This document shows positions 4,481 through 27,679 of a stretch of 27,679 bases of DNA, one piece after another. The notes beneath the pieces are model-generated. The model was given only the letters and a program-made list of their open reading frames with translations, did not search any database and was not told the DNA's origin. Both the position numbers and the translations under genes were made by a program. Every line of letters begins with the position of its first letter. Position 1 is the first letter of the stretch. The stretch comes from a virus: positions 1 to 27,679 of IMG/VR virus record IMGVR_UViG_3300022868_000078; one strand, given 5' to 3'.

Positions 4481-4702
4481 TTAATTAGTTATTATTAAAT
4501 GACCATTTTCATCACAAGCCAACGCTGTCCCTTCTCCATCTGTGATCGACATTCCAGAAGCAGAGTAGTAGCAGATATTCCCGTAGCTTGTATTCCCTAG
4601 AACTTGTTCGTGTCCAACTAGTTTGTAACCTAATACTAAATTTGAAACTAGAGATACTCCAAATAGTATAGTGGTTAGTATTGCGAATTTTTGTAAATTC
4701 AT
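4481..4702 (-). CDS. Small signal-anchored protein with D-G-x-G repeat motif
   Basis: The 73-residue product has an N-terminal hydrophobic segment (residues about 6-27, FAILTTILFGVSLVSNLVLG) that could be a signal peptide or anchor. The remainder ends with TDGEGTALACDENGHLIITN, matching in spacing the segment DDGQGSAIAVDSSGAVMI in the following gene. Two Cys (about 44 and 63) could pair if exported. Start context AAAACT-ATG, preceded by a hairpin leader. It is probably a paralogous fragment or partner of the downstream fibre-like protein. Confidence 0.65.
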   Translation of the reverse strand: MNLQKFAILTTILFGVSLVSNLVLGYKLVGHEQVLGNTSYGNICYYSASGMSITDGEGTALACDENGHLIITN

Positions 4703-4845
4703 AGTTTTTATATTATTTAATATTTTTATCTCCCTACTCTAAAGTTAAAGTAGGAAGGAAAAATGTTAGTTATTCTAACCCCGAGTAGTTCAGGGTTAAT
4801 AAGATTTGGATTTAATTTACAACTTCTTAGATGTGGAGTGAATTT
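4703..4845 (-). promoter_or_regulatory. Intergenic leader with two hairpins and GGGAG motif
   Basis: No gene is visible. CCTACT (4733-4738) pairs with AGTAGG (4749-4754), and in the minus-strand RNA this hairpin is followed by GGGAGATAAA and then an A/T-only linker to the ATG at 4702. A second stem, TAACCC (4776-4781) with GGGTTA (4793-4798), lies upstream. Neither hairpin is followed by a T-run in the transcribed sense, so they are not ordinary terminators. Confidence 0.45.
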
Positions 4846-10309: not shown

Positions 10310-10858
10310 TTATTGGTATATCAAATACTCAACATTCAAAACTCCATTTGTAGTAGTAGCAGGAGAACCAAAGTTAGCGATTATATACTCAGTTGAAGTA
10401 CATAACTGTCCGCCACCATCGGCCTGAACGTAAGTTTGATATACAGCTGTAGTAGTTGAAAATGTATCGGTTGCAAGCGAAGTACCAACAGTTGAACCAT
10501 CAGTAGAAACGCCAATATCAATCGATGTAGTGGCAGTATTGCCAGCACCCGGAGTGACATAATAGTCAATTCCAGTTATTAACCAATTATTACAACTTAT
10601 AGAAGCGGTTGTGGTAGCACCTGTAGTAATGACTTTGCTATAAACTTTAGCAGTTTGGTAAGTATCACCTGCACCACCTAACAATTCTCCTGCGTAATTT
10701 ACATCAGGAGCTTCTACACTTCCTGCAAGGACAATGGCGACTTTATCAATCACCTTATCCCAAAAGCCTCCACTTTTAGCTTTGACAACACCTACAGAAG
10801 CCATAGAAACTACTGTAAGCACCGCAACCAAAGCTATGATTTTGTTTTTATTATTCAT
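10310..10858 (-). CDS. Signal-peptide-bearing beta-rich protein in head module
   Basis: The 182-residue product begins with MNNKNKIIALVAVLTVVSMA, a basic then hydrophobic signal peptide with a VKA cleavage-like site at about residue 27. The mature part is Thr/Gly/Ala-rich with predicted strands (YSKVITTGATTTASISCNNW, GIDYYVTPGAGNTATTSIDI) and two Cys (about 95 and 150) that could form a disulphide if exported. It lies 4 bases downstream of the gene at 10863. An exported protein in the middle of the head cluster is unexpected; it may coat the cell or virion surface. No family recognised. Confidence 0.65.
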   Translation of the reverse strand: MNNKNKIIALVAVLTVVSMASVGVVKAKSGGFWDKVIDKVAIVLAGSVEAPDVNYAGELLGGAGDTYQTAKVYSKVITTGATTTASISCNNWLITGIDYYVTPGAGNTATTSIDIGVSTDGSTVGTSLATDTFSTTTAVYQTYVQADGGGQLCTSTEYIIANFGSPATTTNGVLNVEYLIYQ

Positions 10859-15375: not shown

Positions 15376-16830
15376 TTATTGTTGCCCGTTTATTTTATAA
15401 AATAGTTCTTCGTTTGTTAATGTTTTTGTCATGCGTGGTTCTGGTATTCTTTTCTTTATTTCAAATGGCTCATCCATAGCAGTTAAACCATAGCGGATAG
15501 AGTCAGGTGCGTGATCCTCGCCATCAGTGTCTAGATCCTCGCAGTAATTTGCCCTTTCATCATACATCTGGTCAGGCATAACTCGTATCAATTGTGGACA
15601 ATTCTTGAATACTTGCCAACGAGTTTCAGGTTTTCCATCAACATCTAGCTTAACTTTCATGTATCCTCTCATCAAATTCCATCCATTTACACGACTTCCT
15701 GCCCCTTTTTTGGCCATCCTGATAGGTACGGACCATTCATTAAGCAAGAATACATCATCCATTTGCTCTAATACAGACCTTCCTGCCTCTTTACCAGCAG
15801 ATGATATGGAGTTATCGAACACCATCCAGTCAATAGTTTCATCCGTAGGGGTCATTCTAACAATAGATTTGGCCAGCATTTCGCCTGTGTGCTTAGTAAC
15901 ATAGAGTTCTCGATAGGTATAGACCTTGCGAGTAGCCGGGTCAATAGCATTCCAATAGATAGCAGAGGGTTTAGCAAACCCATAATCTCCACAAATGAAC
16001 TTCTCCCAATTGTCAGGAATAGGGAACGAAGCACAAACGTGAACCTCTTGTTTCCATTCTTCAAAGAACTGACCAGCACCCACATCCCAATTACCATGAA
16101 GCCAAGCCTCACGCAATGCAGAGGGTAAACCTTTTAAATACTTAACATAATCAGGATCATTATCAATAAGTACAGGATTATCAAAGATAGTAGCCGGAAT
16201 AAACACCCTTGTTCGCCCTGTCTGCTCTGGTATCCAGATAGTCAAGGACTTTGGTACGCCATCACCCTTAACAAATCTACGCTTAACCCACGCATGTCCC
16301 TTGCCTGTTGGGTTAGTAGTAGCAAATATAGAGGGTTTAAGACCCGGAACAGTAGACCTGCAAGACGCTATCAAACGATTGTAGCGATCCTCATCAGGTA
16401 TCTGGGTAATTTCCTCAATTAGCATTCTGTGGTATTCGTGTCCTTGATACTTTGTATAGGCATCTTTGTCTTTTAAATGCCCAGTTCTTATTTTAGCACC
16501 ACTAGGGAACTCGAACACAACTGGTTTGCCAACTTTTCTCGCCCCAAACTTGATATACTTTTGTTCAGCTCTATCAATCCAATCAGATAAGTCATCACCA
16601 TTACGCCTAACAACTAGACCTCTAAACTTTGGATTGTCAATGTAATGATCATCTATAAGCCAAACTATACCAGCGTCAGTCTTTCCACCACCACGACTTC
16701 CACCATATAATAACTCAAACGCTCTAATCGATAGGGCCAGAGTCTGTCGTCCTTCGTTCGGTTTCCATTCCAGCACCTCTGTGGTCTGTGATTTCTCCGG
16801 GCTTTGAATATCCATCTGGTCCAATATCAT
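15376..16830 (-). CDS. terL: Terminase large subunit
   Basis: The 484-residue protein drives DNA into the procapsid and cuts it. Walker A is GSRGGGKT (44-51), Walker B is LIEE (137-140) preceded by HRM, and the coupling motif ATTNPTG is at 170-176. The C-terminal RNase H-like nuclease shows ICGDYGF (catalytic Asp282) and later WMVFDNSISSAGKEAG and GEDHAPDSIRYGL. The start could be ATG 16830 or ATG 16815; both lie within the end of the small subunit gene, because an adequate N-terminus before the Walker motif requires it. Hence the two genes overlap by 92-107 bases in different frames. Confidence 0.93.
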   Translation of the reverse strand: MILDQMDIQSPEKSQTTEVLEWKPNEGRQTLALSIRAFELLYGGSRGGGKTDAGIVWLIDDHYIDNPKFRGLVVRRNGDDLSDWIDRAEQKYIKFGARKVGKPVVFEFPSGAKIRTGHLKDKDAYTKYQGHEYHRMLIEEITQIPDEDRYNRLIASCRSTVPGLKPSIFATTNPTGKGHAWVKRRFVKGDGVPKSLTIWIPEQTGRTRVFIPATIFDNPVLIDNDPDYVKYLKGLPSALREAWLHGNWDVGAGQFFEEWKQEVHVCASFPIPDNWEKFICGDYGFAKPSAIYWNAIDPATRKVYTYRELYVTKHTGEMLAKSIVRMTPTDETIDWMVFDNSISSAGKEAGRSVLEQMDDVFLLNEWSVPIRMAKKGAGSRVNGWNLMRGYMKVKLDVDGKPETRWQVFKNCPQLIRVMPDQMYDERANYCEDLDTDGEDHAPDSIRYGLTAMDEPFEIKKRIPEPRMTKTLTNEELFYKINGQQ

Positions 16831-17360: not shown

Positions 17361-17432
17361 TTGCGGGAGTCGGAGTCGAACCGACTTTCTCCTGCGTATG
17401 AAACAGGCGGGTTTCCGTTACCCTATCCCACC
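17361..17432 (-). tRNA. tRNA with CAT anticodon (Met or Ile2)
   Basis: The minus strand folds into a 72-base cloverleaf. Acceptor GGTGGGA pairs with TCCCGCA except at the first position (G-A) and with one G-U; D stem GGGT/ACCC with loop AACGGAA; anticodon stem CCTGT/GCAGG around TTCATAC, giving CAT; variable loop AGAAA; T stem GTCGG/CCGAC with loop TTCGACT. CCA is not encoded. The unpaired 1-72 position recalls bacterial initiator tRNA, but the three G-C pairs of initiators are absent from the anticodon stem. It could also be a lysidine-type Ile tRNA. Confidence 0.85.
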
Positions 17433-17435
17433 ATA

Positions 17436-17549
17436 TAACCTGTTAGCACCTCAGCTAATTAAAGCCGAAGCGGTAATAAATACCTCATCCAAATAAAAAA
17501 GGTAGATTTGAAAGAACATTCATCAATAAGATGAAATGCCAACAGGTTA
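17436..17549 (-). ncRNA. Structured RNA element just 5' of the tRNA
   Basis: TAACCTGTTAGCA (17436-17448) and TGCCAACAGGTTA (17537-17549) form a 13-bp closing stem; its one imperfect position is a G-U pair only in minus-strand RNA. Inside are TTCATC (17519-17524) with GATGAA (17530-17535), GGTA (17472-17475) with TACC (17481-17484) and GCT (17454-17456) with AGC (17463-17465). No gene fits. A multi-branched RNA or a tRNA-processing leader is likely. A packaging site near terS is the alternative. Confidence 0.5.
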
Positions 17550-17831: not shown

Positions 17832-18012
17832 AAGCCTGCCTATTAATGAATAAAATCAGCGGTTATATAGCCATGCTTGCGGAGCAGAGTAAGCTACCCC
17901 AACTATATAACCCCAATTCTAACCACTAATGAGGGTTTGTTAGCCGACATAAGCCGGTGGGCAACCCTCAACCCCAGAAAGAGAAAATCATATCTGGGCT
18001 AATACGCCCTCA
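17832..18012 (-). ncRNA. Gap with three consecutive strong hairpins
   Basis: No gene is visible. GGTTATATAG (17861-17870) pairs perfectly with CTATATAACC (17903-17912), with an inner GCTT/AAGC stem (17875-17878, 17891-17894). TGAGGGTT (17930-17937) pairs with AACCCTCA (17963-17970), and CCCAGA (17973-17978) with TCTGGG (17993-17998). No T-runs follow. The order suggests a structured leader of the gene at 17562-17831, or a free RNA. Confidence 0.5.
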
Positions 18013-18554: not shown

Positions 18555-18602
18555 CTTTTTTGCGATGCTTCGTTGAGCCTAAAATAAGCAACGCTACGCC
18601 CA

Positions 18603-18631
18603 TTGACAAAGTAAATAAAATATGGTACTAT
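18603..18631 (+). promoter_or_regulatory. Early-arm sigma70 promoter
   Basis: TTGACA (18603-18608), a 17-base spacer and TACTAT (18626-18631). The -35 box is perfect and the -10 is weaker, as expected for a regulated promoter. It would make a leader of about 360 bases before the first plus-strand gene. Confidence 0.7.
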
Positions 18632-18641
18632 AAGTCTGTAA

Positions 18642-18667
18642 GTTAACAAGTTAAAATGTTAACAAGT
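18642..18667 (+). repeat. Tandem operator-like repeats
   Basis: GTTAACAAGT occurs at 18642-18651 and again at 18658-18667, 16 bases apart, directly after the expected start site of the early promoter. GTTAAC is itself palindromic. The spacing suits binding of a regulator on nearly the same face of the DNA. Confidence 0.45.
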
Positions 18668-18672
18668 GGTAA

Positions 18673-18977
18673 AGAGGGTAGATCAGGATGGCAATGCTTA
18701 ATCTTAATCTGCCCTCTAACTACACAAAGATAATCATATCCTTTACCCAATACACTTACAAGATAATTCTTTAAACCTTGGGGTAAATGTTGTGCCTACA
18801 AAGAACAAATAGAATGGTTTGTTATTCCCCAAGGCTTAGAGAGTTATCAAGATAGTTTCTTAATGGGGGAAAGTGTAGAAGAATACCCTCCACAATGGAT
18901 ACAGGCAGTGCGAGGGGTGTAACCTATTAAATTAGATAGACCTGTAAGTTCTTGCCTTTCCCCACTAGGAAACTATC
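18673..18977 (+). ncRNA. Long structured leader of the early arm
   Basis: Three domains follow one another. (1) AGAGGGTAGAT (18673-18683) with ATCTGCCCTCT (18707-18717), 11 bp, one of them G-U in plus RNA. (2) CCTTGGGG (18776-18783) with CCCCAAGG (18827-18834), enclosing AACAAA (18804-18809) with TTTGTT (18818-18823). (3) GATAGTTTC (18851-18859) with GAAACTATC (18969-18977) plus GGGGAAAG (18866-18873) with CTTTCCCC (18956-18963), enclosing CCCTC (18886-18890) with GAGGG (18912-18916). A 23-base A/T-rich linker leads to the ATG at 19001. No known RNA family recognised. Confidence 0.55.
18688..18922 (+). other. Possible frameshifted small coding region inside the leader
   Basis: A 28-codon frame (MAMLNLNLPSNYTKIIISF onward) starts at 18688 and ends at CTT-TAA (18769-18774). 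In the +1 frame an open stretch of 49 codons follows to TAA at 18920-18922, ending MGESVEEYPPQWIQAVRGV, with coding-like composition but no start codon at its head. CTT-TAA-A is similar to the CTT-TGA shift site of prfB. It may be a programmed shift, a broken gene, or chance within a structured RNA. Confidence 0.25.
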
Positions 18978-19000
18978 ACTTAATCATTAACTTTAATTAT

Positions 19001-19198
19001 ATGTATTTATCAGAAGTAATAAAGCCAGGAGAAATGTTTAAATGGAAAGGAACAGTCAGAAAGCTTAGAAAAGAACAAGAAATGATTGACGAAGCAGAAG
19101 AAAGAAAAGGTTTAAGAGAAGAACTACCAGCCTTTCTATTCGCAGGGTTAATGTTTCTAGGGTTATACGGAGTAAGACTAATTCAGAATATAATTTAA
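19001..19198 (+). CDS. Small membrane protein, first gene of early arm
   Basis: The 65-residue product has a charged N-terminal half (KWKGTVRKLRKEQEMIDEAE) and a C-terminal membrane helix (LPAFLFAGLMFLGLYGVRLI). A tail-anchored topology is predicted. Early phage genes of this type are often host-takeover or superinfection-exclusion factors; here the role is unknown. It follows the long structured leader and has an A/T-only start context (TTAATTATATG). Confidence 0.65.
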   Translation: MYLSEVIKPGEMFKWKGTVRKLRKEQEMIDEAEERKGLREELPAFLFAGLMFLGLYGVRLIQNII

Positions 19199-27273: not shown

Positions 27274-27283
27274 AATAGAGTAG

Positions 27284-27409
27284 TTGGTTAACACATACAG
27301 AGTAAACCATATTTCCTAGGTATAATATGTCTAGTATTGGCAGGTTCGATTCTTCCTTGTACGTTTTGTGCAGATTGGTTTGATATTAGACTCTGTAGTT
27401 GTTAGCCAA
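27284..27409 (+). ncRNA. Nested structured RNA upstream of the 3D-domain gene
   Basis: TTGGTTAACA (27284-27293) pairs with TGTTAGCCAA (27400-27409), ten pairs with one G-U in plus RNA. TACAGAGT (27296-27303) pairs with ACTCTGTA (27390-27397), and directly inside AAACC (27304-27308) with GGTTT (27377-27381). The interior holds a GGTTCGATTC loop like a tRNA T-loop and a near-palindrome around CCTAGG (27315-27320). A further small hairpin ACGAC-tgctt-GTCGT precedes the gene start. No known family recognised. Confidence 0.55.
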
Positions 27410-27450
27410 TTACAAACCTTAACGACTGCTTGTCGTGGTAATATAATAAT

Positions 27451-27679
27451 ATGCTCCCAGAATTATTATGTGGATTAGCTGTTATCACCTGCAACACCAC
27501 CCCAATAGAAGAAGTAAGAACAGTAACAGCTTATAACCTATTAGAGAGCCAGACAGATGATACTCCATTCATAGGTGCTTTTAATGAGAATTTGCAAGTT
27601 GCTTTAAACAGAGGAGAGAGCCTATGTGCTGCGAATTTCGTACCTAAAGATACAATCCTACATATTGAGGGTTGGGGTG
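27451..27679 (+). CDS. 3D-domain protein, truncated by window edge
   Basis: The visible 76 residues begin with a short hydrophobic segment (MLPELLCGLAVITC) and continue RTVTAYNLLESQTDDTPFIG then NRGESLCAANFVPKDTILHI and EGWG. The order T-A-Y ... Q-T-D-D-T-P ... C-A-A-N-x-x-P-x-x-T-x-[LI]-x-I-x-G-x-G is that of 3D domains (named for three Asp), found in MltA- and RpfB-type peptidoglycan-active proteins. It may be a second lytic enzyme or a virion-associated lysin. The start lies in TAATAATATG after a structured leader. Confidence 0.7.
   Translation, partial: MLPELLCGLAVITCNTTPIEEVRTVTAYNLLESQTDDTPFIGAFNENLQVALNRGESLCAANFVPKDTILHIEGWG

Follow-up and report, generated by a model that had tools for sequence, protein, structure and literature searches.

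The window, by which we mean the whole stretch of DNA that was analysed, corresponds to a linear virus record 27,679 bases in length and carries a late arm on the minus strand, which includes the gene for the terminase large subunit, and an early arm on the plus strand, which encodes a helicase loader, a DnaB-like helicase and a RecT-like annealing protein (Table 1). The two arms are separated by a divergent control region with promoter-like sites on both strands. The early site is retained in the closest relative (L002, introduced below) as TTGACA..TGATACTAT, and from its predicted position transcription would start near 18638. At this putative start lies an inverted repeat, both GTTAAC halves of which are conserved in L002 and which may act as an operator. 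The first gene of the early arm codes for a product of 65 aa that has a homologue in L002 (59% identity) and no match in Pfam or PHROG; judged by eye, it probably ends in a C-terminal membrane segment. Ahead of most start codons in the window there is A-rich sequence and no Shine-Dalgarno motif, pointing to a host in which translation starts without this motif.

Table 1 Location of the genes, control sites and hairpins discussed in the text.
Feature	Position	Strand	Description
Late arm, terminase large subunit	15376-16830	-	
tRNA-Met	17361-17432		Rfam 15, gathering score
Intergenic hairpin upstream of tRNA-Met	17436-17549	-	large; 12-bp outer stem
Intergenic hairpin	17851-17921	-	long, 22 bp
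Promoter-like site, late side	18528-18500	-	
Early promoter-like site	18603-18631	+	TTGACA-17-TACTAT, TG ahead of -10; consensus match only (10/12)
Operator-like inverted repeat	18642-18663		GTTAACA..TGTTAAC, from sequence and fold
Hairpin P1	18666-18723	+	24 bp, 58 nt; MFE -26.7, z -6.7
Block holding P2 and P3	18725-18989		from alignment; absent in L002/L008
Hairpin P2	18762-18848	+	87 nt; 13-bp outer stem, 1x1 A.C mismatch, 8-bp inner stem, multibranched interior; MFE -31.9, z -5.4
Open frame (FFKPWGKCC...RGV)	18767-18922	+	51 codons, no start codon; crosses P2/P3
Hairpin P3	18851-18977	+	127 nt; 12-bp outer stem (18851-18862/18966-18977), small internal loop, 8-bp inner stem (18866-18873/18956-18963), multibranched interior; MFE -45.6, z -4.3
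Early arm	from 19001	+	
First early-arm gene	19001-19198	+	65 aa; ATG at 19001, 24 nt after P3
Hairpin ahead of P27	27241-27275		
P27, possible third member of a P2/P3 family	27280-27413	+	14-bp outer stem, 2x2 loop, 8-bp inner stem

Folding of the early leader

Between the early promoter and the first gene, the plus strand is predicted to fold into three consecutive hairpins (P1, P2 and P3), in agreement with the sequence-only reading of this locus, which had described three successive strong stems filling this space. The minimum free energy of positions 18673-18977 was -102.8 kcal/mol on the plus strand, compared with a mean of -69.8 for dinucleotide shuffles (z -6.7), and 0/100 shuffles folded as low; on the minus strand the value was -92.1 (z -4.1). 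A scan of the whole record with 305-nt segments every 100 nt showed the largest folding excess on the plus strand at the leader. Based on the z score, the shuffles and this rank, the structure goes far beyond chance. Some details changed upon refolding: P1 is present but reaches further out than first drawn, and the third stem (18851-18873 with 18956-18977) is indeed two-part but consists of 12 + 8 bp instead of 17 bp. Among the long stems of the window, P2 scores highest. The folding asymmetry of all three hairpins favours the plus strand, and the wobble of the first stem is, as had been noticed, G-U only in plus-strand RNA. However, the coding-strand RNA was also the more stable one in 115/171 ordinary genic segments; since these show the same bias, the asymmetry says little about an RNA function, and we dropped it as a proof.

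A search of the whole window against Rfam 15 at gathering scores returned only the tRNA-Met, and within the leader, with E values up to 5, only irrelevant weak matches were obtained; thus, no Rfam family matches the leader. Likewise, no convincing protein match extends across the region. The open frame crossing P2 and P3 is probably not a gene, and it is very unlikely that the block represents the remnant of a small protein gene or a recoded one. Its 51 open codons show a mildly gene-like codon score (p 0.018 before correction for six frames), but the frame lacks a start codon and has no homologue in Pfam, PHROGs, NCBIfam, phages, plasmids or IMG/VR. Moreover, stop-free runs of this length occurred in 33% of shuffles, and a coding origin would leave the 21-bp stems unexplained. 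A 28-aa frame starting at 18688 has no homologues either, and one viral match (L081) and one Pedobacter 23-mer match (L083) turned out to be located in unrelated genes.

Hairpin P1 and the P2/P3 block in related phages

Using the helicase, the terminase, a neighbouring 69-aa protein and the P1 sequence as queries, we found the leader in only one other contig, IMGVR 3300005915_001202 of IMG/VR, which accounts for L002, L008 and L011 alike. This contig matches the window at 89% identity as far as 18724 and at 95% identity from 18990 onwards, and the approximately 265 nt between these points are absent. In P1, 24/24 pairs are standard in both phages, and the six substitutions at paired positions are all one-sided and pair-preserving; after these changes, pairing holds via G-U and on the plus strand only. 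Seven random transitions in the P1 core would leave the stem intact in about 7% of cases, and for this reason the conservation of P1, seen in one relative and of borderline significance, is suggestive but not conclusive. As to the covariation that had been proposed as a check, the pair-preserving changes in P1 are all one-sided, and no relative was found that carries P2 or P3. Covariance models of the three hairpins searched over 785 kb gave matches only in the window and in L008. The next relative, L003, has a helicase that is 93% identical and a short leader without P1, followed by a first gene for a similar small membrane protein (similarity judged by eye). Since the nearest relative lacks P2 and P3 and L003 lacks P1, no hairpin is essential to the lineage.

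Because P2 and P3 are missing from the relative, the 300-base leader is better described as P1 plus an accessory block than as one conserved RNA. The original proposal of a regulatory or free RNA consequently stands in its position behind the early promoter, the lack of an Rfam or convincing protein match and the maintained P1 pairing, but not as a single unit. Altogether, the leader is probably a real regulatory or processed RNA that matches no known family.

Neither P2 nor P3 has a copy in scans of phage, plasmid, IMG/VR and GTDB sequences, and the leader has no DNA homologues among phages or plasmids. Searches of IMG/VR with the arm patterns of the two hairpins gave no match for one and three unrelated matches otherwise. 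Within the window, a scan for long two-part stems identified five distinct elements, every one intergenic: P2, P3 and P27 on the plus strand, where P27 ranks second, and the hairpins at 17436-17549 and 17851-17921 on the minus strand. The outer stems of P2, P3 and P27 have the pattern TARTTNNTTA/TAGNNARYTA in common, in which the variable NN positions are complementary and a U-G wobble is invariant. Mononucleotide shuffling predicts 0.005 pairs of this kind per strand, for a motif that was itself defined from these three elements. Alignment tests gave a global p of 0.011 for P2-P3 and a local p of 0.044 for P2-P27, whereas P3-P27 was not significant. The interiors of the three elements differ, and cross-searches with the covariance models of P2 and P3 did not convincingly recover the other members. 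We hypothesise that the three are related RNAs. The more specific idea that they form a family of small phage RNAs not described before, whose shared outer stem is recognised by one RNA-binding or processing factor, with tandem copies in the early leader and another before a gene farther along the same arm, appears quite unlikely. As a side observation, P27 and the hairpin ahead of it form an intergenic pair in front of the gene at 27451, and P27 contains a tRNA T-loop-like GGTTCGATTC, at which ARAGORN calls no tRNA.

The sharp presence and absence of the block between well-conserved flanks, the heptamer TAATCAT near both of its ends (at 18731 and 18981) and the related stem ends of P2, P3 and P27 could also be explained by an inserted DNA element of palindromic or MITE-like type, or by a deletion in L002, the block itself having no function as RNA. 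We consider this unlikely: an empty site should contain one TAATCAT, which L002 does not have, the three interiors differ, and neither approximately 0.9 Mb of loci nor the collections of phages and plasmids yielded further copies. In addition, all three elements are oriented with the transcription of their arm, for which the chance is 1 in 8.

Possible roles of the leader RNA

In phage lambda, the early promoter is followed by a structured leader containing nutL and an RNase III hairpin, the N leader, and then by the first early gene, and the window shows the same order of promoter, structured leader and first gene. However, no boxA (CGCTCTT/TGCTCTT with at most one substitution) was found in 18601-19050, and no N-like protein was identified. 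Neither P2 nor P3 is followed by a U-tract and no terminator follows P3; accordingly, an attenuator or terminator reading of the leader was rejected, readthrough into the operon is expected and the hairpins should belong to the early mRNA leader, while a discrete free RNA of 300 nt would need processing.

The explanation that we tentatively place first is a processed leader. The structure at 18666-18977 would form the 5' untranslated leader of the early mRNA and be transcribed as one piece, with P1, just downstream of the transcription start, as a conserved cis-acting hairpin. P2 and P3 would be an accessory pair whose stems, about two helical turns long with a small loop near the middle, are most likely cut or bound by a double-strand-specific RNase of the RNase III type. 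Such action could shorten the leader and shield its new 5' end, besides insulating the first gene, and in this way influence gene expression. Structured early leaders govern the timing of expression of the first phage genes and the lifetime of their mRNA, and to our knowledge few are known outside model phages. If P2 and P3 act as RNA, they would offer a compact, testable case in an uncultured lineage, with the relative that lacks them as a built-in comparison.

P2 and P3 resemble the RNase III signals of phage T7 (R1.1 and others), which are likewise long stems with interruptions located in early mRNA (PMC8708148, PMC4858673). The R1.1 stem is long and contains mismatches, and cleavage can occur with as little as 12 bp of stem (PMC8708148). 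Signals of this type usually also have a small internal loop; P2 with 13 + 8 bp around a 1x1 mismatch and P3 with 12 + 8 bp around a small loop agree with this stem type. In contrast to R1.1, however, the interiors of P2 and P3 are multibranched, which speaks against the RNase III reading, and these predicted sites lie in a leader whereas those of T7 lie between genes. The dispensability of all three hairpins in the lineage and the borderline significance of P1 conservation also count against this explanation.

Alternatively, P2 and P3, with or without P1, could be released from the early transcript as a free regulatory RNA acting in trans on host or phage targets. Their strong, compact folds with multibranched interiors, their moron-like accessory presence and their shared ends, to which P27 is similar, are in line with such a role; yet they have no terminator and no own promoter of note, and no homologue or Rfam match in any collection searched, so that we regard this reading as unlikely. 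Another possibility is suggested by phage HK022, in which the putL hairpin RNA lies directly downstream of the early promoter PL (PMC9378689). By analogy, the leader might bind RNA polymerase and allow it to pass terminators in a factor-free manner: P1 begins approximately 28 nt after the putative start, and at 10603-10674 the early arm of L008 carries a U-tract hairpin that resembles a terminator. This comparison is one of architecture. The put RNA comprises two adjacent stem-loops within approximately 70 nt, whereas P1 is one long stem of 58 nt followed by two larger hairpins of 87 and 127 nt, and the early arm of the window shows no terminator-like site on the plus strand, which makes a put-like antiterminator rather improbable. 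Our ranking places RNase III-type processing first, ahead of an RNA acting in trans, a neutral insertion of palindromic DNA and a put-like antiterminator.

Further hairpins in the window and its relatives

Both L008 (approximately 10535-10690) and L003 (approximately 4640-4795) have a promoter-like site and, behind it, a strong U-tract hairpin that resembles a terminator and whose loop shows complementarity to a segment immediately upstream (ACATCGTCAAA/TTTGACGATGT in L008, TCTTGCA/TGCAAGA in L003). These hairpins, whose sequences are unrelated between the two phages, may constitute an attenuator of the early replication genes. On the minus strand of the window, the outer stem of the large hairpin upstream of the tRNA-Met is conserved in L002, where it contains one two-sided compensatory change from C-G to U-A. 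Similarly, the 22-bp hairpin has a counterpart at 9381-9451 of L008 that is 99% identical, the sole change being from U-A to U-G.
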